Source: Dolomitihabitans soli | GTDB taxonomy: Bacteria; Actinomycetota; Actinomycetes; Streptosporangiales; Streptosporangiaceae | Direction of reading: 5' to 3' | Length of the DNA stretch: 64,000 nucleotides | Assembly (NCBI RefSeq): GCF_022213955.1 | Contig: NZ_JAKNTW010000001.1 | Span: 496,001-560,000 of the forward strand | Part shown: positions 38,967 to 48,503 of the stretch, piece by piece | Numbering within the stretch: position 1 is the first letter of the stretch | How the letters are laid out: the number at the start of each line of letters is the position of its first letter | Notes under the pieces: generated by a model | The model's input: the letters and a program-made list of their open reading frames with translations, nothing else | What the model was told of the DNA's origin: nothing | Database searches by the model: none | Program-made: the position numbers and the translations under genes

Positions 38967-40352
38967 CTAGCTGATCAGCCCTTCGAACGCGTCGATCGCG
39001 AAGTAGGCGGCGAAGATCAGCGCGACGATCCACAACAGCCAGTGGATCTCCCCGAACCGTCCCCGCGCGGCCTTGACCGTCACGTAGGCGATCACACCCG
39101 CACCGACGCCGTTGGTGATGCTGTAGGTGAAGGGCATCAGCGCGATCGTCAGGAAGGCGGGGATCGCCACATCAAGGTCTTGCCAGGGCACGTTCCTGCT
39201 CTGCGTCATCATCAGCGCGCCGACGAGCACCAGGGCGGGCGCGGCGGCCGCGGCGGGCACGACCATGGTGATCGGCGTGAACAGCAGGGTGAGCGCGAGC
39301 AGCCCGCCGGTCGCGACGCTGGCCAGGCCGGTCCGCGCGCCCTCGCCGACGCCCGCGGCCGACTCCACGAAGACGGTGCCGGCCGAGGAGCTGGTCGCCC
39401 CGCCGATCGCGGCGGCCACGCCGTCGACCGTGAGGATCGCGCCCAGCCGGGGAACCCGCCCCTGCTCGTCGACCAGCCCGGCCTCGTCGCTCACCCCGAT
39501 GATGGTGCCCATCGCGTCGAAGAAGCCGGACAGGACGAGGGTGAACAGCACCACGGTCGCGGTGACCACGCCGGCCCTGGCGAAACCGCCGAACAGGTCG
39601 AATTGGCCGAGCAACCCGAAGTCGGGCGCCGAGATCACCGAGTCGGGTATCCGTGGCTCCACCACCCCCCAGCTCCGGGGGGCGATCGTGAAGACCTCGT
39701 CGACGACGATGGCGACCACGGTGGTGACCGCGATGCTGATCAGGATGGCTCCGGGCGTCCTCCTGACGTACAGCGCGATCATGAGCAGCAGGCCGAAGCA
39801 GAACACGGACACCGGCCAGCCCGCGAGGTGTCCCGTCGCGCCGAGCTGCACGGGGGTGCCGATCCCGCGCGCCACGAACCCCGCGTCGACCAGGCCGATC
39901 AGCGCGATGAACAGCCCGATTCCCACGCTGATCGCGTGCTTGAGCGCCAGCGGGATGGCATCCATGATCAGCCGCCGCACGCCGGAGACCGCCAGCAGAA
40001 TGATCAACAACCCCTGGAGCACCACCAGCCCCATCGCCTGCGGCCAGGTCATGTACGGCGCGGCCTGGTAGGCGACCACGGCGTTCAGCCCCAGCCCGGC
40101 CGCCAGCCCGAACGGCGCGTTGCCGATCACGGCCATCAGCAGCGTGCTCACCGCGGCCGCCAGCGCGGTCGCCGTCGTGAGCTGCGGGATCGACAGCTTG
40201 GCTCCGGTGACGTCGGTCGCCCCGGCCAGGATGATCGGGTTCAACAGGATGATGTACGCCATCGCCACGAACGTGGTGACGCCGCCACGCACCTCACGCG
40301 CGACGGTGGTGCCACGCTCCCGCAGTGCGAAGAACCCGCTCAGCGAACCCAT
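38967..40352 (-). CDS. NCS2-type (AzgA-like) purine permease
   Basis: The 461-residue transporter belongs to the AzgA-like nucleobase permeases: TTFVAMAYIILLNP, FGLAAGLGLNAVVAY, SGFFDAMGTIIGVSDEAGL and GGATSSSAGTVFVESAAGVGEGARTG are typical. It likely imports hypoxanthine, xanthine, guanine or adenine with protons. The xanthine dehydrogenase subunit gene lies 44 bp upstream on the same strand, so a purine-catabolic operon under PucR control is likely. ATG at 40350-40352. Confidence 0.92.
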   Translation of the reverse strand: MGSLSGFFALRERGTTVAREVRGGVTTFVAMAYIILLNPIILAGATDVTGAKLSIPQLTTATALAAAVSTLLMAVIGNAPFGLAAGLGLNAVVAYQAAPYMTWPQAMGLVVLQGLLIILLAVSGVRRLIMDAIPLALKHAISVGIGLFIALIGLVDAGFVARGIGTPVQLGATGHLAGWPVSVFCFGLLLMIALYVRRTPGAILISIAVTTVVAIVVDEVFTIAPRSWGVVEPRIPDSVISAPDFGLLGQFDLFGGFARAGVVTATVVLFTLVLSGFFDAMGTIIGVSDEAGLVDEQGRVPRLGAILTVDGVAAAIGGATSSSAGTVFVESAAGVGEGARTGLASVATGGLLALTLLFTPITMVVPAAAAAPALVLVGALMMTQSRNVPWQDLDVAIPAFLTIALMPFTYSITNGVGAGVIAYVTVKAARGRFGEIHWLLWIVALIFAAYFAIDAFEGLIS

Positions 40353-40396
40353 TCCGCCCCCCTCCGCGCGAGGGGGCATCCGGAGACCTACCCAGG

Positions 40397-42610
40397 TCAG
40401 GTGAGTGCGATGTGCTCCGGCCTGATGGGGACGCGGGACAGCGCCCTGCCGGTGGCGGCCCGGACGGCCGCCACGACGGCGGGGGTGGTGGAGAGCGTGG
40501 GCGGCTCGCCCGCCCCCCGCAGGCCGTACGGCGCGGCCGGGTCGGGGTTCTCCAGGATCGACACCTTCATCGGCGGCATGTCGAGGATCGTGGGGATGAG
40601 GTAGTCGGTGAACGACGGGTTGCGCAGCCTGCCGTCCGCCACCAGGACCTCCTCCATCAGCGCCAGCCCGAGCCCCTGGGCCGAGCCGCCGTGGATCTGG
40701 CCTTCGAGGGCGAGCAGGTTGAGCACCTTGCCGACGTCCTGCACGGCGGCCAGCTCCACCACCTTCACCAGGCCCAGCTCCACGTCCACGTCCACCACGG
40801 CACGGTGCACGCACAGGGCGAGCTGGGTGTGGGAGTCGCCCTGCCCGGTCGACGGGTCCATGGGAAAGGTGGGCCGGTGACGATACTCCCGGGTCTCCTC
40901 CACCGGCCCGAACCGCTGCAGCAGCGCTGTGGTCGTGAGACCCGGATGGGCGGCGGCCAGCTCCGCGAGCCGTTCGCGCACGGCCTCGCAGGCGGTCTTC
41001 ACCGCGCCGCCGGTGACGTAGGACTGCCGGGACGCGGACGAGGAGCCGGCGGAGCCGACCGTCGTGTCCGCCGGCGCGACGGTGACCCGCTCGACGCCCA
41101 GCTCGGTCCGCGCGACCTGCGCCTGGACGGTGACCAGCCCCTGACCGACCTCGGCCGCCGCGGTGTGCACGAGTACGTGCGGCTCGCCGCCTGCCAGCTC
41201 CAGCCGCACCCGGGCGGTGGAGTAGTCGTCGAAGCCCTCGGAGAAGCAGATGTTCTTGATGCCGACCCCGTAGCCGACGCCGCGCCGTACGCCCTCGCCG
41301 TGGGTGGTCTGCGCCACCCCGCCGGGAAGCTCCCGCAGGTCGCCGTCGCTCGCGGCGGGCAGCGGGAACGCCTCCAGCTCGGCGAGCATGCCGGCCAGCG
41401 GCGCGGGGGAGTCGATCAGCTGGCCGGTGATCAGGCGCGAGCCCTGGGAGACCGCGTTGCGGATCCGCAACTCCACGGGGGACAGCCCGCACGCCTCGGC
41501 CAGCCGGTCCATCTGCGATTCGTAGGCGAAACACGCCTGCACCGCGCCGAACCCGCGCATCGCCCCGCACGGTGGATTGTTCGTGTAGACGCCGTACGCG
41601 TCGATCTCGACGTTCCCCACCTCGTACGGCCCCGCGCCGAGGGAGGCCGCGTTGCCGACCACCGCGGGCGAGGAGGAGCAGTAGGCGCCGCCGTCGAGCA
41701 GGATCTCCGCCTTCACGTAGATCAGCCGGCCGTCGCGGGTGGCGCCGTGCTCGTAGCGCATCCAGGCGGGATGCCGGTGCACGTGCCCGAAGAACGACTC
41801 CTCGCGGTTGTAGACCATCTTCACCGGCCGCCCGGTGCGCAACGCCAGCAGGCACGCGTGGACCTGCATCGACAGGTCCTCACGCGCCCCGAAGGCGCCG
41901 CCCACCCCGGCCAGCGAGACGCGTACCTTCTCAGCCGGCAGCCCCAGGCAGGGCGCGATCTGGTCGCGGTCCACGTGCAGCCACTGGGTGGCGACGTAGA
42001 GGTCGACGCCGCCGTCCTCCGCGGGCACGGCGAGGCCGGACTCGGGCCCGAGGAACGCCTGGTCCTGCATGCCCACCTCGTACTCGCCGGTGACCACGAC
42101 CGGCGCCTCGAACACCGAGCCGACCCGTACCGGCTGGTGGCGCAGGATGTTGCCCCTCTCACCGACCTTCGGGCAGGCCGGGTCGAAGGCCGCGCGTCGC
42201 GCGTCGGTGACCGCCTCCGTCACCTCATAGTCGACCACGATCGCCGCTGCGGCCCGCCGCGCCCGCTCGGGATGGTCGGCGGCCACCAGCGCCACCGGCT
42301 CGCCCTGGTAGCGAACCCGGTCGACGGCGAGCACCGGCTGGTCCCTGAGCTCAAGGCCGTGGTGCTTCTCGCCGGGCACGTCCTCATGGGTGAGCACGGC
42401 GAGCACCCCGGGCATCGCCAGCGCCGGGCCGAGGTCGATGGAGCGGATCCGGGCGGCCGGGTGCGGGCTGCGCAGGGTGACGCCCCAGACCATGTCCTCC
42501 AGCCACAGATCGGAGGAGTAGGCGAACTCCCCGGTCACCTTCAGCGTGCCGTCCGGCCGCGGGGCGCTCTGCCCGATGCCCTGGCTCGTACGGGTGTCTG
42601 TGCTGGTCAC
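40397..42610 (-). CDS. Xanthine dehydrogenase family, molybdopterin-binding subunit
   Basis: The 737-residue large subunit carries the molybdenum-cofactor domains: FAYSSDLW at the start, GGAFGAREDL and AMRGFGAVQACFAYE around the active site, TAAAEVGQGLVTVQ near residue 475, and the GLRGAGEPPTLSTTPAVV end with the catalytic Glu. It oxidises hypoxanthine or xanthine together with Fe-S and FAD subunits, which are not encoded in this window. Start GTG at 42608-42610. The permease gene follows and the PucR gene is divergent. Confidence 0.93.
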   Translation of the reverse strand: MTSTDTRTSQGIGQSAPRPDGTLKVTGEFAYSSDLWLEDMVWGVTLRSPHPAARIRSIDLGPALAMPGVLAVLTHEDVPGEKHHGLELRDQPVLAVDRVRYQGEPVALVAADHPERARRAAAAIVVDYEVTEAVTDARRAAFDPACPKVGERGNILRHQPVRVGSVFEAPVVVTGEYEVGMQDQAFLGPESGLAVPAEDGGVDLYVATQWLHVDRDQIAPCLGLPAEKVRVSLAGVGGAFGAREDLSMQVHACLLALRTGRPVKMVYNREESFFGHVHRHPAWMRYEHGATRDGRLIYVKAEILLDGGAYCSSSPAVVGNAASLGAGPYEVGNVEIDAYGVYTNNPPCGAMRGFGAVQACFAYESQMDRLAEACGLSPVELRIRNAVSQGSRLITGQLIDSPAPLAGMLAELEAFPLPAASDGDLRELPGGVAQTTHGEGVRRGVGYGVGIKNICFSEGFDDYSTARVRLELAGGEPHVLVHTAAAEVGQGLVTVQAQVARTELGVERVTVAPADTTVGSAGSSSASRQSYVTGGAVKTACEAVRERLAELAAAHPGLTTTALLQRFGPVEETREYRHRPTFPMDPSTGQGDSHTQLALCVHRAVVDVDVELGLVKVVELAAVQDVGKVLNLLALEGQIHGGSAQGLGLALMEEVLVADGRLRNPSFTDYLIPTILDMPPMKVSILENPDPAAPYGLRGAGEPPTLSTTPAVVAAVRAATGRALSRVPIRPEHIALT

Positions 42611-42724
42611 AAAGGCAGTACATCACTCGCGGGGCGGACCGGCCTATGGGCCCCGCCATGAAAGGCGGGCCGCCGCCCGCACCGGACTTGTAGCTTCCTC
42701 CAAAGCCGGGAGTTACGCTGACGT

Positions 42725-44236
42725 GTGCGCATCCGGGACGTCGTGGCGATGGCGGAGCTCCGGCTCGCCGTGCTCGGCGGCGGCGAGCACCTGGACCGGG
42801 AGTTCACCGGCGTGCACATCACCGACCTGCCCGACCCCGGACGCTACCTGTCAGGCGGCGAGCTGGTCCTCACCGGGCTCATGTGGCGCGACCGGCCGGA
42901 GGACTCCGAGCGGTTCGTGGCGGCGCTCGCCGGCGCCGGAGTGACCGCCGTCGGCGCCGGGCTGGCCAGGCTGGGCGACGTCCCCGGCGACCTCGTGACG
43001 GCGTGCGAGGCGTACGGCCTGCCGCTGCTCGCCGTACCGGTGGAGATCTCGTTCAGGAGGGTCACCGAGCTGCTGGGCGCCCGGCTGTCCCTCGACGTGC
43101 GCGACGCCCTGGGCAGGCACCGCCGCATCGTGGCCGCCGTCTCCGAGGGAGCGGGGCTGCCCGACCTGTTCGCGCTCATGCTCGGCGAGCTGGGCGTCGC
43201 GGGGGCGGTGCTCTCCGCCACCGGCCGGCCGATCGCCGGCGACCACGCGGGGCTCCCGCTGCTGCCGCTGGCCCACGCGTATCTCTCCGCGCCCCGGCTC
43301 CCGCACGTCGTCCATCGCGACGGCGGCACCTACACGATCTTCGGAGTGGGCCGGTCGCACCGGGCGGCGGGCTGGGCGCTGGTCTGCGAGGGCGACCTGA
43401 GCGGGCGTGCCGACCTGGGCTACGAGCTGGCCGCCTGCGTCGCGCTCGAACGCACCAGGATCGGGGAGGGGCGCCGGGTCGAGCGCAGACTCGCCGGCCG
43501 GCTCATCGACCTGGCCAGGGCGGGCGGCGACGCGGCGGAGGTGGGAGCCGGGCTGCGCACCTGCGGGATCGAGCCCGGCGAGCCGTACGCCGTGGTCGAC
43601 GCCGTCGCGGTGGACGCGGGCGGCGGTCGTGAGGTGGGCGCGGCGGCGCTCGGGGGGCAGATCGTGGAGGAGATCCTCGGCCGCGGCGTGGTGGCGGCGG
43701 CGGGGGAGGACGGCGCGCTCGCCCTGGTATCCCTGCGTGGTGGGCACACCGCCCAGGATCTGGCGGAGTCGCTGCGCGCCGGGGTGGCCGTGCTGGCGGC
43801 GGGGATGCGCGCGACGAGGGTGTCGATAGGGGTGAGCGCCGCGCTCTCGGGGGCGGCCGCGTTACGCGGCGGAGCCGAAGAGGCGGGACATGCGCGCAAA
43901 CTGGCGGAAACGCGTAACGGTGGAGTGGTGACCAGCGATGAGATCTATACGCACACGCTGCTGCTGGCCACCCTCCCACGTGACGTGCGGCGATCCTTCG
44001 CCGCACGCCTGCTGGGGCCGCTGCTCGACTACGACAGCAGGCACCAGTCGGAACTCGTACGGACGCTCGGCACGTATCTCGACTGCGCAGGGTCGTGGAA
44101 CGCGTGTGCCGAGCGTATGCATGTGCACGTCAACACGGTGAGGTACCGCATTCACCGTGTGGAGGAGCTGACCGGACGAGATCTGTCGAGCATGACCGAC
44201 CGCGTCGACCTGTTCCTCGCATTACGAGCAGATTGA
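42725..44236 (+). CDS. pucR: PucR-family transcriptional regulator
   Basis: The 503-residue protein has the N-terminal PucR domain (IRDVVAMAELRLAVLGG, GVHITDLPDPGRYLSGGELVLT), a GGDEF-like middle part and a C-terminal HTH_30 (LVRTLGTYLDCAGSWNACAERMHVHVNTVRYRI). It likely activates the divergent purine genes. GTG at 42725. The gene holds two rare TTA leucine codons, at 43862-43864 (codon 380) and 44222-44224 (codon 500), so translation may depend on the bldA-type tRNA. Confidence 0.93.
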   Translation: MRIRDVVAMAELRLAVLGGGEHLDREFTGVHITDLPDPGRYLSGGELVLTGLMWRDRPEDSERFVAALAGAGVTAVGAGLARLGDVPGDLVTACEAYGLPLLAVPVEISFRRVTELLGARLSLDVRDALGRHRRIVAAVSEGAGLPDLFALMLGELGVAGAVLSATGRPIAGDHAGLPLLPLAHAYLSAPRLPHVVHRDGGTYTIFGVGRSHRAAGWALVCEGDLSGRADLGYELAACVALERTRIGEGRRVERRLAGRLIDLARAGGDAAEVGAGLRTCGIEPGEPYAVVDAVAVDAGGGREVGAAALGGQIVEEILGRGVVAAAGEDGALALVSLRGGHTAQDLAESLRAGVAVLAAGMRATRVSIGVSAALSGAAALRGGAEEAGHARKLAETRNGGVVTSDEIYTHTLLLATLPRDVRRSFAARLLGPLLDYDSRHQSELVRTLGTYLDCAGSWNACAERMHVHVNTVRYRIHRVEELTGRDLSSMTDRVDLFLALRAD

Positions 44237-44239
44237 GAT

Positions 44240-44371
44240 CTAGCAGCAGAGGGCGGCGCGATCCGCCGCCGTAGCAGACGCGGAGGGGGATGTGGTCGTA
44301 GCATTGACTCCGACCGCTACGACGGCCGTAATCAGCACGGCCAGGGCAGACACTGTGAGGCGACGACGCAT
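44240..44371 (-). CDS. Small secreted peptide of 43 residues (possible signal peptide)
   Basis: ATG at 44369-44371 follows GGAG by 8 nt and gives 43 residues. It has a basic start (MRRR), a hydrophobic core (LTVSALAVLITAVVAVGV), then a Ser/Thr/Ala stretch and the end ADRAALCC. A Sec signal with an AxA cleavage site near SATA would release a short peptide ending in two cysteines. The gene is divergent from an XRE-TPR regulator across 54 bp and converges on pucR with a 3-bp gap. The layout resembles peptide-receptor pairs of Firmicutes; this reading is inference. Confidence 0.65.
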   Translation of the reverse strand: MRRRLTVSALAVLITAVVAVGVNATTTSPSASATAADRAALCC

Positions 44372-44373
44372 TG

Positions 44374-44425
44374 TGGTGCTCCTGTCACGGGGGTTCGTTC
44401 GACGACATTGTTCCAGGGAGTACCA
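44374..44425. promoter_or_regulatory. Divergent promoter region with mirrored ribosome sites
   Basis: Arms TGGTGCTCCTG (44374-44384) and CAGGGAGTACCA (44414-44425) are near-inverted repeats, each covering a ribosome site of one gene. One dimeric regulator could cover both. No clear -10/-35 pair is seen in 54 bp. Confidence 0.4.
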
Positions 44426-45712
44426 GTGAGTCAAGATCTGGTCGGTCAGCGCATCAAAACGATTCGCCGTCAACGTGGGCTTTCTCAAGCTCAGTTGGCA
44501 CATCCAGAGTTGTCGGACAGCTATGTATCTCTTATCGAAAGCGGTAAGAGAACGCCAACTCCGGCAGTGCTCGAGCTGCTGGCGGTGAAACTCGACTGTT
44601 CGCTCACCTACCTGGTCAACGGCGTTACGGCGACCCAGATGCACGAGCTGGAACTCGAGCTCGGATACGCTTTGATGGCGCTGGAGAACGGTGCCGTGGC
44701 GGAGGCGCGCAGGCGATACGCCGACCTGGTGGCCGACAACGCCGTCGCGGGACTCGCACAACTCCGGCAGGACGCCGAATACGGCCTCGCGCTGGCCATG
44801 GAGGCCTGCGGCGACCTCGACGCGGCCATCGCCACCTTCAACGGCCTGCGCGCCACGGCGGCCGGGAACATGTCGCCCGAGCGGCACATCGCGGTGGCCG
44901 TCGCGCTGTCCCGCTGTTACCGCGACCGCGGCGACCTGAGCGCGGCGGTCCAGGTCGGCGAGCAGATCCTGACGGGGACTGTCCGCCCCGCCTGGACCGA
45001 CGAACTGGTCGAACTGGGTTCCACGCTCCTGGGCGTCTACCTGGTCCGCGGTGATCTGCTGCGGGCGAGGCAGTACTCCGCCGAACTGCTCGCGGCGGCG
45101 GAACGCCTCGGCCCCCGGGCCACCGTCGCCGCCTGCTGGAACGCCTCGCTGGTGGCCGAGGCCAGCGGTCACGGTGAGGAGGCGCTGGCGCTCATGGAGC
45201 GCGCGTTCGCCATCCACTCCGAGGTCGGTGAGCGGCGCAATCTGTACCGGCTCCGCTTCACCTACCACGGCCAGCGCTTTCGCGTCAGGCCGGAGGAGGC
45301 GGAGACCAGTCGCGAGGGGATCCTGCGCGCCCAACGGGAGCTGAGCGAGTCCTCCGCCGGGATCGCCGACCGGGTCAGGTGCGAGATGGAGCTCGCCCAT
45401 GTCGAGTTCGGCCTCGACCGCCCCGCCGAGGCGGCGGGCCGCGCGGAGGCCGCTCGCAAGCTGGTCTCCACCAGCACGCGTGACCTCGGCGCGGACGTGC
45501 ACCTCGTCCTCGGCGGCGCCTATGCGATGCTCGGCAAGATCAAGGACGCGAGGGAGTCGATCGCGACGGCCACCCAGTGGCTGGAGCGGGTCGTCCCGCC
45601 CCGCCACGCCGCTCAGGGCTGGTGCACCGTGGCCGACGTGCTCGGCAGGCTGAAGGACCGTGAGGGAAGCATCGCCGCCTACCAGAAGGCGCTGGCCTGC
45701 GCGGGCCTCTGA
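44426..45712 (+). CDS. XRE-TPR regulator (RRNPP-like architecture)
   Basis: The 428-residue protein has an N-terminal XRE helix-turn-helix (LVGQRIKTIRRQRGLSQAQLAHPELSDSYVSLIESG, residues 5-40) and about nine TPR-like helical repeats to the end, such as ALAMEACGDLDAAIATFNGL and AYAMLGKIKDARESI. This order is that of peptide-sensing regulators (Rgg, PlcR, NprR) of Firmicutes and also of XRE-TPR proteins in actinomycetes whose ligands are unknown. GTG at 44426 follows CAGGGAG. The small secreted peptide gene is divergent. Confidence 0.82.
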   Translation: MSQDLVGQRIKTIRRQRGLSQAQLAHPELSDSYVSLIESGKRTPTPAVLELLAVKLDCSLTYLVNGVTATQMHELELELGYALMALENGAVAEARRRYADLVADNAVAGLAQLRQDAEYGLALAMEACGDLDAAIATFNGLRATAAGNMSPERHIAVAVALSRCYRDRGDLSAAVQVGEQILTGTVRPAWTDELVELGSTLLGVYLVRGDLLRARQYSAELLAAAERLGPRATVAACWNASLVAEASGHGEEALALMERAFAIHSEVGERRNLYRLRFTYHGQRFRVRPEEAETSREGILRAQRELSESSAGIADRVRCEMELAHVEFGLDRPAEAAGRAEAARKLVSTSTRDLGADVHLVLGGAYAMLGKIKDARESIATATQWLERVVPPRHAAQGWCTVADVLGRLKDREGSIAAYQKALACAGL

Positions 45713-45720
45713 CCGGCCGC

Positions 45721-45768
45721 CCGGCCTCTTCCGCACCCGGCTCCGGCCGGGGGACCGGGAGAGGCCGG
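45721..45768 (+). terminator. Terminator hairpin of the XRE-TPR gene
   Basis: CCGGCCTC at 45721-45728 and GAGGCCGG at 45761-45768 form an 8-bp stem with a smaller inner CCGG/CCGG hairpin, 9 nt after the stop. Confidence 0.5.
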
Positions 45769-45915
45769 TGCGTTTCACCGGGCGCCATCAGTGGGCGCCC
45801 CCGGTCGGGCAGGGCCGCGTCCACACCTCTGGCATGTTGGATCGTGCGCGATTCGGCCAGGTTTCGGCGACCGGGGTTCGGACCGGACCCCCGCGTCGGT
45901 AGCCTTGGACGTGCC

Positions 45916-46515
45916 ATGAAGACTTCCCCGTTCGGTCCCGCGCTCGCCTTCCTCGCGGCCCTTCTCGTCAGCGTGGTCCTCGCCCCTCCCGCCCTCGCCC
46001 ACGACGCGCTCAGAAGCAGCGACCCTGCCAAGGACGCCAAGGTCGAGAACGTGCGGAAGGTGACCCTGGAGTTCACCGCCAAGGTGCGCCTGCCCACCGT
46101 CGTGGTCACGGCGGCCGACGGCACCCGTCACGAGAGCGGCAAGCCGTCGGCCGACGGCGCCGTCGTGACCCAGCAGCTCGACCGCCCGCTCCCCGCGGGG
46201 AAGTACACCATCGCCTACCGGATCGTCTCCTCCGACGGGCATCCCGTGGAGGGGGAGATCCCCTTCACGGTCGTGGGCGGCGCCGAGCCCTCGGAGGCCG
46301 CCTCCGCGGAGCCCCAGCCCTCAGAGCCCGAGCCCTCGGAGTCGGCCGCCGCGCCATCGGCGCCCCCCACCGCTCTATCCGCCACGCCTACTCCGGTGGC
46401 CGCCGAGCAGGACGATGACGGCGGCGGTGTGCCGGTGTGGCTGTGGATCGTCGTCGGGGCGCTGGCCGGCATCGGCCTCGGCATGTTCTTCAGCATGCGA
46501 GGCAAGAGACGGTGA
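45916..46515 (+). CDS. copC: CopC-domain copper-binding membrane protein
   Basis: The 199-residue protein has a signal peptide ending PALAHDALRSSDPA, so a His follows the cleavage site as the first copper ligand; the SSDGHPVEGEIPFTV block gives the second His. A Pro/Glu/Ser-rich stretch (residues about 125-165) leads to a C-terminal helix (WLWIVVGALAGIGLGMFF). This is the YobA/CopC type anchored outside the membrane. Its stop overlaps the next gene start, which encodes the CopD partner. Confidence 0.9.
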   Translation: MKTSPFGPALAFLAALLVSVVLAPPALAHDALRSSDPAKDAKVENVRKVTLEFTAKVRLPTVVVTAADGTRHESGKPSADGAVVTQQLDRPLPAGKYTIAYRIVSSDGHPVEGEIPFTVVGGAEPSEAASAEPQPSEPEPSESAAAPSAPPTALSATPTPVAAEQDDDGGGVPVWLWIVVGALAGIGLGMFFSMRGKRR

Positions 46516-48503
46516 GCCGCACCGTACGTGTGGCGCTGGCGGCCGCCGGAGCCGCCCTCATCGCCCTGATCGTGGCGATGTTCGCCGGTGGCGCGGCCAC
46601 CCCCCGCATCATCCCCGGCCTGCCCGACGAGGGCGCGCTCACCAGGTGGGCGCTGCCGATCTCGAAGCTGGCGATGGACACGGCCGGCGTGCTCACCGTC
46701 GGCGCCCTGCTGGCCGCCACCGTCTTCCTCCCCAGCGACAAGGGACTGCTCGGCAGGACCGCGCTCGACTACGTGAAGGCCGCCTCCTGGCTGGCGCTCG
46801 CCTGGGCCGCCGCGGCGGCCTCGACCATGCTCTTCACCCTGTCGGAGTCGCTCGGCCTGCCGGTCATGGAGGTGCTCGGCGGCAACGAGCTGACCAGCTT
46901 CGCCAGCCAGGTCTCCCAGGGCATCGCGCTGACCATCGTGGTGCTGTTCGCGGTCGCGATCGCGTTGTTCTCCCGTGGCGCGATCACCGCGGGCGCGTCG
47001 GGCGGCCTGCTCGTCCTCGCCGTCTTCACCCTGCTGCCCCCCGCCCTCACCGGGCACTCCGCCTCCTCGCCCAACCACTCGCTGGCGACATCGGGCGTCG
47101 CCCTGCACCTCGTCGGGCTGGCGCTGTGGGTGGGCGGGCTCGTCGTGCTCTGCGCGCACGCGCTGCTGAAGCGCCCGCAGCTCGACATCGCGGCGCAGCG
47201 GTTCTCCCGGCTGGCGCTGTGGTGTTACATCGGTCTCGGCCTGTCCGGCGTGTTCGGCGTCCTGGCCCGCCTGACCTCCGTCGCGGAGCTCTTCACCACG
47301 TCGTACGGCCTGCTCGTGGTCGCCAAGGTGGTGGCCTTCGGCGCGCTCGGCACCGTGGGCTGGTGGCACCGGCGGCGCACCCTGCCAGAGCTGGACGCGG
47401 GCCGGCCGAAGGCCTTCCTCCGGCTGGCCTCGGGCGAGGCCGTGCTGATGTTCGCGACCGTCGGCCTGGCTGTGGCGCTGGCCCGGACCGCGCCGCCGCC
47501 GACGACGCTGCCCGTCGACCGCGCCTTCGAACTGCTCGGCTATCTGGTGCCGCCGCCGATCTCGATCGGCAACCTCGTCACGTTGTGGTGGTTCGACCTG
47601 TTCTTCGCCGTCGTCGCGGCGGCCCTCGGCGGCCTGTACGCCGCCGGTCTCGTGCGGTTGCGGCGGCGCGGTGACTCCTGGTCGTGGGGGCGCACCTCGG
47701 CGTGGTTCACCGGGGTGCTGATCCTGGTGCTGGCGACCCAGAGCGGCGTCGCCCGCTACGCACAGGTGATGTTCAGCGTGCACATGGCCGAGCACATGAC
47801 GCTGTCGATGCTGGTGCCGATCTTCCTGGTGCTCGGCGCCCCGGTCACGCTCGCCCTGCGCGCCCTGAAGCCCGCCGTACGCCGGGGGGACCGGGGGCCG
47901 CGGGAGTGGCTCACCGTGATCCTGCACAGCAGGGCGGTGAAGTTCTTCGGGCATCCGGGCATCGCCACGACCCTGTTCATCGTCTCCACCTACGCGCTGT
48001 ACTTCACGCCGTTGTTCGCCGGGGCGATGTCCGAGCATCTCGGGCACATCGTCATGACGTCGCACTTCCTGCTCAGTGGCACGCTGTTCTTCTGGGTGAT
48101 CGTGGGCGTCGATCCCGCCCCGTACAAGCTGCCTCATGTCGGGCGGCTGCTCGTCCTGTTCGTCACGATGCCCTTCCACGCCTTCTTCGGCATCGCGATG
48201 ATGATGATGACGACGGTGATCGCGTCCGACTGGTACGACCAGCTCGGCCGTACCTGGGGGGCCTCCTCCGTCGAGGACCAGCAGACGGGTGGGGCGATCG
48301 CGTGGGGGTTCGGCGAGATCCCGACCCTGATCGTGATCCTCGCGCTGGCCCTCCAGTGGTGGCAGGACGACACCCGGAAGTCCAGCCGGGCCGACCGCAG
48401 GGCGGACGCGATCGCGGCCAAGACCGGCGGCACCGGTGACGCGGAACTCGATGCCTACAACGCCTATCTGGCGAAACTGGACAAACGGGATCGCGCCGAA
48501 TAG
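46512..48503 (+). CDS. CopD-CtaG fusion: copper import and cytochrome oxidase assembly protein
   Basis: The 663-residue polytopic protein joins a CopD domain (residues about 20-330; PALTGHSASSPNHSLATSGVALHLVGLALWVGG shows its His-rich core) to a caa3-type CtaG domain (about 370-620; SVHMAEHMTLSMLVPIFLVLGAP, GHIVMTSHFLLSGTLFFWV). It should move copper, collected by CopC, across the membrane toward cytochrome oxidase. GTG at 46512 overlaps the copC stop. The two domains are often separate genes; the fusion is common in actinomycetes. Confidence 0.9.
   Translation: MSRTVRVALAAAGAALIALIVAMFAGGAATPRIIPGLPDEGALTRWALPISKLAMDTAGVLTVGALLAATVFLPSDKGLLGRTALDYVKAASWLALAWAAAAASTMLFTLSESLGLPVMEVLGGNELTSFASQVSQGIALTIVVLFAVAIALFSRGAITAGASGGLLVLAVFTLLPPALTGHSASSPNHSLATSGVALHLVGLALWVGGLVVLCAHALLKRPQLDIAAQRFSRLALWCYIGLGLSGVFGVLARLTSVAELFTTSYGLLVVAKVVAFGALGTVGWWHRRRTLPELDAGRPKAFLRLASGEAVLMFATVGLAVALARTAPPPTTLPVDRAFELLGYLVPPPISIGNLVTLWWFDLFFAVVAAALGGLYAAGLVRLRRRGDSWSWGRTSAWFTGVLILVLATQSGVARYAQVMFSVHMAEHMTLSMLVPIFLVLGAPVTLALRALKPAVRRGDRGPREWLTVILHSRAVKFFGHPGIATTLFIVSTYALYFTPLFAGAMSEHLGHIVMTSHFLLSGTLFFWVIVGVDPAPYKLPHVGRLLVLFVTMPFHAFFGIAMMMMTTVIASDWYDQLGRTWGASSVEDQQTGGAIAWGFGEIPTLIVILALALQWWQDDTRKSSRADRRADAIAAKTGGTGDAELDAYNAYLAKLDKRDRAE

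Follow-up and report, generated by a model that had tools for sequence, protein, structure and literature searches.

What does a 43-codon gene ending in two cysteine codons do beside a divergent regulator gene in an actinomycete? The question is raised by positions 44240 to 45712 of a 64,000-nucleotide stretch of the Dolomitihabitans soli genome (contig NZ_JAKNTW010000001.1, positions 496,001 to 560,000), the whole of which is referred to here as the window. One gene of the pair specifies a mini-peptide with a Sec-like signal and a terminal CysCys (CC); the other specifies an XRE-type regulator that combines a helix-turn-helix (HTH) domain with tetratricopeptide repeats (TPRs). The data presented below indicate that the two genes probably constitute a self-contained secreted-pheromone/receptor module, working like the RRNPP systems (Rap/Rgg/NprR/PlcR/PrgX, and AimR). 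A signalling role, proposed in an initial annotation of the window, is made more plausible by the recurrence of the pair in nine families (families and genera are coded here), by an invariant heptapeptide, by the separate peptides of tandem regulators and by a receptor residue, Thr200, that tracks the peptide tail.

The peptide gene and its divergent regulator

The candidate propheromone gene occupies 44240..44371 on the minus strand, stop codon included, and its 43-codon product, read from an ATG start (44371-44240), is MRRRLTVSALAVLITAVVAVGVNATTTSPSASATAADRAALCC. The Shine-Dalgarno sequence AGGAG (44379..44383, minus strand) lies 7 nt upstream of the ATG. The open reading frame (ORF) and ribosome site of this gene, with its Sec-like signal and CC end, are thus present as initially annotated, and the 54-bp gap to the divergent XRE-TPR regulator is likewise confirmed (44372-44425). 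The codons of the last seven residues, DRAALCC (44243..44263, minus strand), are predicted to specify the mature signal, the length being that suggested by the GPRVHCC group described below; DRAALCC may be the exact mature form in the D. soli strain. The mini-peptide has no Pfam match, and the sole hint from NCBIfam comes from TIGR04429, a Phr signal region that the N-terminus resembles with a score (E 0.0058, 17.1 bits) below the cut-off of 25. No other small ORF of the window combines a signal with a CC end under either of the rules applied here, a strict rule (hydrophobicity 1.8, charge 1, a ribosome site and ≤80 aa) and a relaxed rule (hydrophobicity 1.6, charge 0, ribosome site not required and ≤100 aa). 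Other counts used variants of the ORF rule, the background having been measured for the strict and relaxed rules only.

The regulator gene (44426..45712, plus strand) encodes 428 aa, the proposed intracellular peptide receptor. Its longest ORF opens at TTG 44408; the likely start is instead GTG 44426, which stands behind the Shine-Dalgarno sequence AGGGAG (44415..44420, plus strand). Numbered from this GTG, residues 10-63 comprise an HTH_3 DNA-binding domain (44453..44614, plus strand; Pfam 1e-10), and the helices at 69-425 of an AlphaFold2 model form a TPR superhelix (44630..45700, plus strand), in agreement with a Pfam match to TPR_12 (2.2e-10). The model is confident, with a mean predicted local distance difference test score (pLDDT) of 90.2 and a predicted template modelling score (pTM) of 0.84.

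Conservation of the pair among close relatives

Relatives were retrieved by the regulator protein alone, and the best 80 of 118 loci, with 53-71% identity, were compared; they derive from Streptosporangiaceae genera and a few metagenome-assembled genomes. All 81 loci (80 relatives and the window) contain a divergent ORF whose start is rich in Arg and which has a hydrophobic core; the distance from peptide start to regulator start, aligned to GTG 44426, is 50-66 bp. Neither the lack of conservation nor the frameshifts that the initial annotation had named as telling against the pair were found in relatives, a like ORF lying at the same place in 80/80. The CC tail occurs in 66 of the 81 loci (65/80 relatives), the other 15 lacking it, and the genera that display it include Spongiactinospora, Microtetraspora, Thermocatellispora, Sinosporangium, Sphaerisporangium, Planotetraspora, Herbidospora, Acrocarpospora, Microbispora and Nonomuraea. 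The CC codons are mostly TGC TGC, with some TGT, and the stop codons differ among loci.

The small ORF stands beside the regulator far beyond chance. A first count by the strict rule gave 0 CC-ended signal ORFs in the 540,338 bases away from regulators and 129 in the 491,892 bases around them. When all loci from L032 on were included, the strict rule returned 2 in 656,950 bases away and 163 in 781,647 around, and the relaxed rule, applied to the same DNA, 3 away and 190 around. Two of these three outside ORFs sit 1.8-1.9 kb from a regulator of the same family. The inside counts are not independent because some genomes were sampled twice.

Conservation and divergence of the peptide tail

In one group of peptides, drawn from three coded genera, the final seven residues, GPRVHCC, are identical in 6/6 sequences (L117, L119, L120, L121, L128 and L129), although each of these residues is encoded by two to three different codons across the group. 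Positions −8 to −25 of the same peptides, signal included, contain no invariant residue, and five different residues occur at −8. The retention of GPRVHCC despite varied codons, when the remainder has diverged, shows selection on the C-terminal heptapeptide in this group. Other clades display clade-specific residues before CC, such as ..RADFLCC, ..DWCC, ..YSxECC, ..PGEFCC and ..WPGMCC.

The 15 close relatives without CC (L045, L046, L047, L049, L063, L076, L077, L079, L085, L089, L099, L101, L103, L104 and L111) belong to Streptosporangium, Planobispora and Planomonospora. Their tails, L076 and L101 excepted, are mostly Trp-x-x-Pro-like, exemplified by GWNHPD, PWGYPI and SWSYPD. Judged from the sequences, these Trp/Pro tails, found in one receptor clade, appear to be a natural tail swap.

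Spread of the pairing across actinobacteria

The wider set comprised 181 distinct regulators, after open frames of <380 aa and identical repeats had been dropped. A divergent CC peptide accompanies 116 of these, a divergent non-CC peptide 17, and a CC peptide located elsewhere beside the gene 11 (one being a locus-edge duplicate). At least one CC-peptide case was found in each of nine coded families (f1, f9, f14, f18, f19, f20, f26, f27 and f38), with the peptide gene of f26 mostly downstream and convergent. Searches with the regulator matched 93/150 genomes of the window's own family at 1e-30, peptide-free paralogues included, and 60/394 genomes of the class, representing 27/138 genera (own genome included). 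The regulator was found in 21/22 genomes of family f19 and 26/200 of f18. Absences in the own-family, class-wide and f18 searches, and in the phylum-wide sample described below, are soft, since 4 to 11 candidates were scored per genome. Under the relaxed rule a CC peptide lies beside 20/21 f19 loci and 23/30 f18 loci. The f19 loci come mostly from the same genomes as an earlier f19 set and add little; the f18 loci had no part in forming the rule. Three of the seven f18 loci without a CC peptide are second tandem copies whose partner has one. Our guess is that f19 is Micromonosporaceae and f18 Streptomycetaceae, the latter helped by one f18 regulator that is 69% identical to a Streptomyces goshikiensis plasmid regulator. 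Tandem regulators at L132 and L133 are also informative, each copy having its own CC peptide with a different tail.

Among Streptomyces plasmids, 14 records match the regulator, and three of the six that were examined carry a CC peptide. In the plasmids of S. goshikiensis and S. sp. ADI95-16 a peptide ending ..HTKDIPLCC, annotated as a ‘hypothetical protein', lies just downstream of the regulator (L224/L231); it was listed without a signal test and scores 0.3-0.4 by our signal rule from the annotated start, its hydrophobic stretch beginning late. The plasmid of S. sp. NBC_01707 encodes a peptide ending ..GDLPLCC 1.9 kb downstream of the regulator, and the plasmids of NBC_00334, NBC_01387 and NBC_01176 have no CC peptide in 3.5-kb flanks. 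In a phylum-wide sample 5/395 genomes besides the window's own matched at 1e-40 (families f90 and f94), with no CC peptide within the 2.4-4.2 kb examined. A scan of IMG/VR with the receptor alignment found no phage relative. Separately, an unverified 11.9-kb ‘bacteriophage' record (MT836207.1, 98-1069; L230) contains a regulator fragment that keeps Thr200, Asn239 and Asn272; no CC peptide was found in the part examined, and the record may be bacterial DNA.

Two variations on the arrangement were observed. At f19 loci L209, L214, L216 and L248 the divergent CC peptide is joined by another and longer one (..DTPDGGSDFCC type), encoded downstream in convergent orientation, which could mean either two signals for one receptor or an orphan signal. 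A variant peptide at L238:11167 (minus strand) ends GGGLCCYE, placing CC two residues from the end, and the regulator beside it, L138_3857, keeps Thr200 and Asn239.

Fold of the proposed receptor and its association with the tail

A profile search of PDB sequences identified PlcR as the best natural match to the regulator (7.2e-9, residues 3-186), three engineered TPR proteins ranking ahead of it. Comparison of the model with known structures gave Z scores of 22-23 for Rap (root-mean-square deviation (rmsd) 6-7, about 345 residues), 22.3 for NprR and 20.3 for PlcR (rmsd 2.9 over 213 residues).

The relationship between receptor and tail was explored with a FastTree phylogeny of 180 regulators, L004_3152 being left out as it is cut at the locus edge. 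Peptide-type labels require 19 changes on this tree, compared with a mean of 59.4 when shuffled, showing strong clustering. The 17 rows with non-CC tails, two of which end NNAE and PHAE, share one clade with three peptide-less rows and require 2 changes (shuffled mean 16.5). The 428 receptor positions were then ranked by how well the commonest residue of the CC rows separates CC rows from others (L183 and L184, at contig ends, were left out). The top-ranked residue, Asn272 (codon 45239..45241, plus strand), is present in 112/126 CC rows and 7/52 others, an association confined to the first data set. The presence of Thr200 (45023..45025, plus strand), found in 120/126 CC rows and 13/52 others, follows the CC tail both in this data set and in a second. 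Within codons 235 to 239 (45128..45142, plus strand), Asn239 occurs in 116/126 and 11/52, and Ala235 in 116/126 and 13/52, of the first set. Positions 272, 239, 200 and 235 each map to the first helix of a TPR, the three TPRs concerned being successive (first helices 192-208, 230-246 and 270-287, by our own helix pairing of the model), and first helices of TPRs line the groove.

The second data set, from f18 and plasmids, lies outside the sample on which the ranking was made. It comprises the first regulators of L261-L287 with L224, L225, L226, L227 and L231; L228 (peptide 1.9 kb away; has Thr), L230 (a fragment), second tandem copies and the overlapping L288-L290 were left out. By hand count Thr200 is present in 23/25 of these loci with a CC peptide and 3/7 without (Fisher p 0.012), a value that is optimistic because L224/L231 and L225/L227 are near-copies.

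A proposed mechanism

In the proposed scheme the small gene would give rise to a propeptide that the Sec system exports, and signal peptidase, perhaps with a further protease, would release a short C-terminal fragment, some seven to fourteen residues long, with CysCys at its end. The mature peptide would accumulate outside the cell and be taken back by an oligopeptide permease (Opp); the genome encodes 26 Opp-type substrate-binding proteins, which makes peptide import possible. Inside, the peptide would bind the concave groove of the TPR superhelix and so alter the activity of the XRE DNA-binding domain, possibly with the divergent promoter region among its targets. Each lineage would have its own ‘word' in the residues that precede CC, with CC as the shared anchor.

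The RRNPP or RRNPPA systems of Bacillota (PlcR-PapR, NprR-NprX, Rgg-SHP, ComR-ComS, PrgX, AimR-AimP and Rap-Phr) also comprise an HTH and TPR receptor that adjoins a short propeptide gene with an export signal, and there too selection acts on C-terminal residues of the peptide. The N-terminal XRE-type HTH of those receptors (all but Rap) is present in the window's regulator, as is, by Pfam and the model, the C-terminal TPR superhelix. The adjacent small ORF with an export signal has its equivalent in 81/81 loci by our crude signal rule. The mature signal of RRNPPA systems is made up of the C-terminal 5-10 residues of the propeptide; in one group here a C-terminal heptapeptide, the predicted mature part, is invariant. 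In known RRNPP receptors a conserved Asn of the TPR groove holds the peptide backbone (passages in PMC3601957 and PMC6458997); here Asn239 and Asn272 rank highest by association with the peptide in the first set, and are at most candidate counterparts of RapF Asn227. The pair differs in its actinomycete host, in a CysCys tail that extends across families and in a sequence likeness that is that of generic HTH and TPR regions. A fixed C-terminal motif after a variable part is also a feature of the arbitrium system of Bacillus phages, AimR-AimP, where RGA takes the place of CC and is anchored by conserved receptor residues (a passage in PMC6458997), whereas the pair described here is found in bacterial genomes. 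Taken as a whole the pair resembles an RRNPP system in the way it would function, a resemblance that may or may not reflect common descent.

An unlikely variant of this scheme is a class-wide actinobacterial pheromone language, not of Bacillota descent, in which almost all words would have a vicinal CysCys pair at the end and the redox state of that pair would be part of the message: oxidised outside the cell and reduced inside, where the TPR groove around Thr200/Asn239 would read the free thiols.

Observations against a pheromone-receptor module

Several observations weigh against the proposed module. The peptide is missing from the DNA examined at 37 of the 181 regulators, and ten peptide-less rows (L112-L116, L124-L127 and L130) form a clade. 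The second copies of the L135 and L137 tandems have no peptide. When 10-17 kb around six peptide-less loci was inspected, a CC peptide was found 1.8 kb from L191, whose regulator keeps Thr200/Asn239/Asn272, and none at the other five; L194 has no CC peptide in this wider DNA although it retains all three residues. The D. soli genome itself encodes a second XRE-TPR regulator (L208, G000:C80:177782-179074), with 33% identity to the first and no adjoining peptide.

The peptide and receptor each provide further difficulties. The signal call rests on our own crude hydrophobicity/charge rule. The initial annotation proposed a check on whether AALCC is conserved while the signal core varies; CC alone proved to be conserved, and conservation is higher in the signal half than in the tail. 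Pooled ratios of nonsynonymous to synonymous substitution rates (dN/dS), from 32 close, non-independent pairs, are 0.55 in the signal half as against 0.80 downstream of it, showing a tail that changes quickly around a constant CC. Nearly every locus of the f18 and plasmid set has Asn239, and position 272 is mostly His or Ala, such that only Thr200 holds, and across nine independent pairs Thr200 changed in the same way as the tail in 3.5 and the other way in 0.1 (median p 0.25), which is not significant. APPBP2, subunits of the anaphase-promoting complex/cyclosome (APC/C) and MalT domain III outscore the RRNPP structures, with Z scores of 26-28 (up to 28.3). TPR folds bind many partners, and the modelled fold fits RRNPP without singling it out. 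The Pfam family RNPP_C (PF18768) has no match in the genome at E 0.001 and none for the regulator at E 0.1, a weak test because not one of 14 control genomes yields a match at the cut-off of this model. No operator was found in the 54-bp region between the genes.

Two side observations concern L208. Peptide-less paralogues like it form a clade of nine rows on the regulator tree, and the gene upstream of it resembles, by eye, a PH-domain membrane protein.

Gene neighbourhood and alternative explanations

A distinctly unlikely alternative is that the cell exports the peptide as an antimicrobial or other effector and that the regulator, which would sense something else, merely controls its gene. 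The fast evolution of the part after the signal (dN/dS 0.80) and the existence of family regulators without a peptide are in keeping with such a role. An effector, however, leaves the receptor/tail association and the clade-confined tail swap unexplained, and its predicted mature part would be very short. Moreover, the side and strand on which the peptide gene is found relative to the regulator vary from family to family, a pattern more in keeping with a ligand/receptor pair than with a shared promoter.

The neighbouring genes suggest a second, quite improbable, explanation, in which the CC peptide would bind copper or some other thiophilic metal outside the cell and the regulator would switch metal homeostasis, its targets being CopC and CopD/CtaG. 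Adjacent thiols bind metals, and CopC and CopD/CtaG-like genes (45916..48503, plus strand), possible local targets in the window's family, lie downstream of the regulator; within 3 kb downstream the former is found in 76/80 relatives and the latter in 78/80. Against this view, all 15 non-CC loci keep both neighbours, and no CopC or CopD gene was found at the tested loci of other families (flanks of about 1.5 kb; f18 outside the test). We know of no TPR metal sensor. The neighbours in other families are an EamA transporter and an aminotransferase (f19) and, elsewhere, a helicase, manganese efflux, alanine dehydrogenase and sulfatase. Because neighbours differ between families, the pair is probably a stand-alone module.

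On the peptide side, the window contains a PucR-family regulator gene (42725..44236, plus strand) that converges on the peptide gene, the two stops being 3 bp apart, and beside it the large subunit of a xanthine dehydrogenase (40397-42610). A PucR gene and a xanthine-dehydrogenase subunit are each found within 3 kb on this side in 46/80 relatives; in the DNA examined, the PucR neighbour is also present at four (L124-L127) of the ten peptide-less relatives. This arrangement bears on the highly improbable proposal that the small ORF is a cysteine-responsive attenuator, in which ribosomes slow at the terminal Cys codons under cysteine shortage and thereby control a downstream gene of the same transcript. 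The adjacent terminal Cys codons are suggestive, and polycysteine leader ORFs, likewise short actinobacterial ORFs with adjacent Cys codons, occur in mycobacteria (Canestrari et al. 2020, in a passage of PMC9031893). Those leaderless ORFs exert their effect in cis on the genes that follow them, whereas the ORF described here has a signal and a ribosome site. An attenuator also needs a co-directional downstream gene, and the next coding-like ORF, its orientation judged by a codon-composition rule, is convergent in 56/81 loci, as is PucR in the window, co-directional in 4/81 and absent within 2.5 kb in 21/81. The signal sequence, the Shine-Dalgarno sequence and the invariant GPRVH before CC have no role in attenuation, and one clade has dropped CC. 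Finally, chance chromosomal placement within one family is a scarcely credible account of the pairing: PucR and CopC/CopD synteny does show the region to be stable in the family, but the background is 0 to 3 such ORFs in 540-657 kb, and nine coded families have the pair, amid different neighbours where these were examined.

The intergenic region

The divergent intergenic region (44372..44425, 54 bp) has no conserved palindrome, and a repeat search found no inverted repeat of ≥8 bases within it. The ‘mirrored arms' over both ribosome sites, from which the initial annotation had suggested control of both genes, are an imperfect gapped match with a score of 16.5, confined to this strain; none of the other loci among the 81 reaches that score. 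Arms paired within a locus score on average 10.95, compared with 11.39 for pairs mixed between loci, and shuffles reach 16.5 in 3.4%. As a conserved element the mirrored operator arms were rejected, being unconserved and near chance. An Rfam scan of 40000-48000 returned nothing at the gathering score.

A different feature was noted in f19, where a 10-bp palindrome, TGTCATGACA, overlaps the presumed ATG of the regulator in 17/19 loci (L169-L178, L209-L216 and L218; counted by eye), with CAATA a few bases upstream. It takes the form CTGTCATGACAG in 11 loci. The palindrome may be start-codon context only, a leaderless start or an operator.

Discussion

Ribosomally made signals of the RRNPP type have been described from another phylum. 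The RRNPP family is called ‘exclusive to the Firmicutes' in a passage of PMC6458997, RRNPP_detector was run on Firmicutes and viruses (a passage in PMC10075063), and an RRNPPA survey reports Firmicutes, the stem Actinobact being absent from its main text (PMC9765709). In a review on Actinobacteria (PMC4748050), TPR is named in a table only and RNPP and XRE are absent. The review describes γ-butyrolactone signalling of Streptomyces and relatives, which is also actinobacterial cell-to-cell signalling but employs small molecules and not ribosomal peptides. The literature covered, which excludes preprints (bioRxiv) and most subscription journals, contains no described actinobacterial RRNPP-type system and no CC-ended peptide with an XRE-TPR receptor.

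Many antibiotics come from actinobacteria, whose colonies are multicellular, and the lack of ribosomal peptide signals from this group is, to our knowledge, a long-standing gap. The rule that emerges here, a signal-bearing CC-ended small ORF beside an XRE-TPR gene of this family, yields dozens of candidate signals that could be synthesised from sequence and makes the question testable. The recurrence of the pair in at least nine actinobacterial families points to a cell-cell signalling language previously thought to be confined to another phylum.

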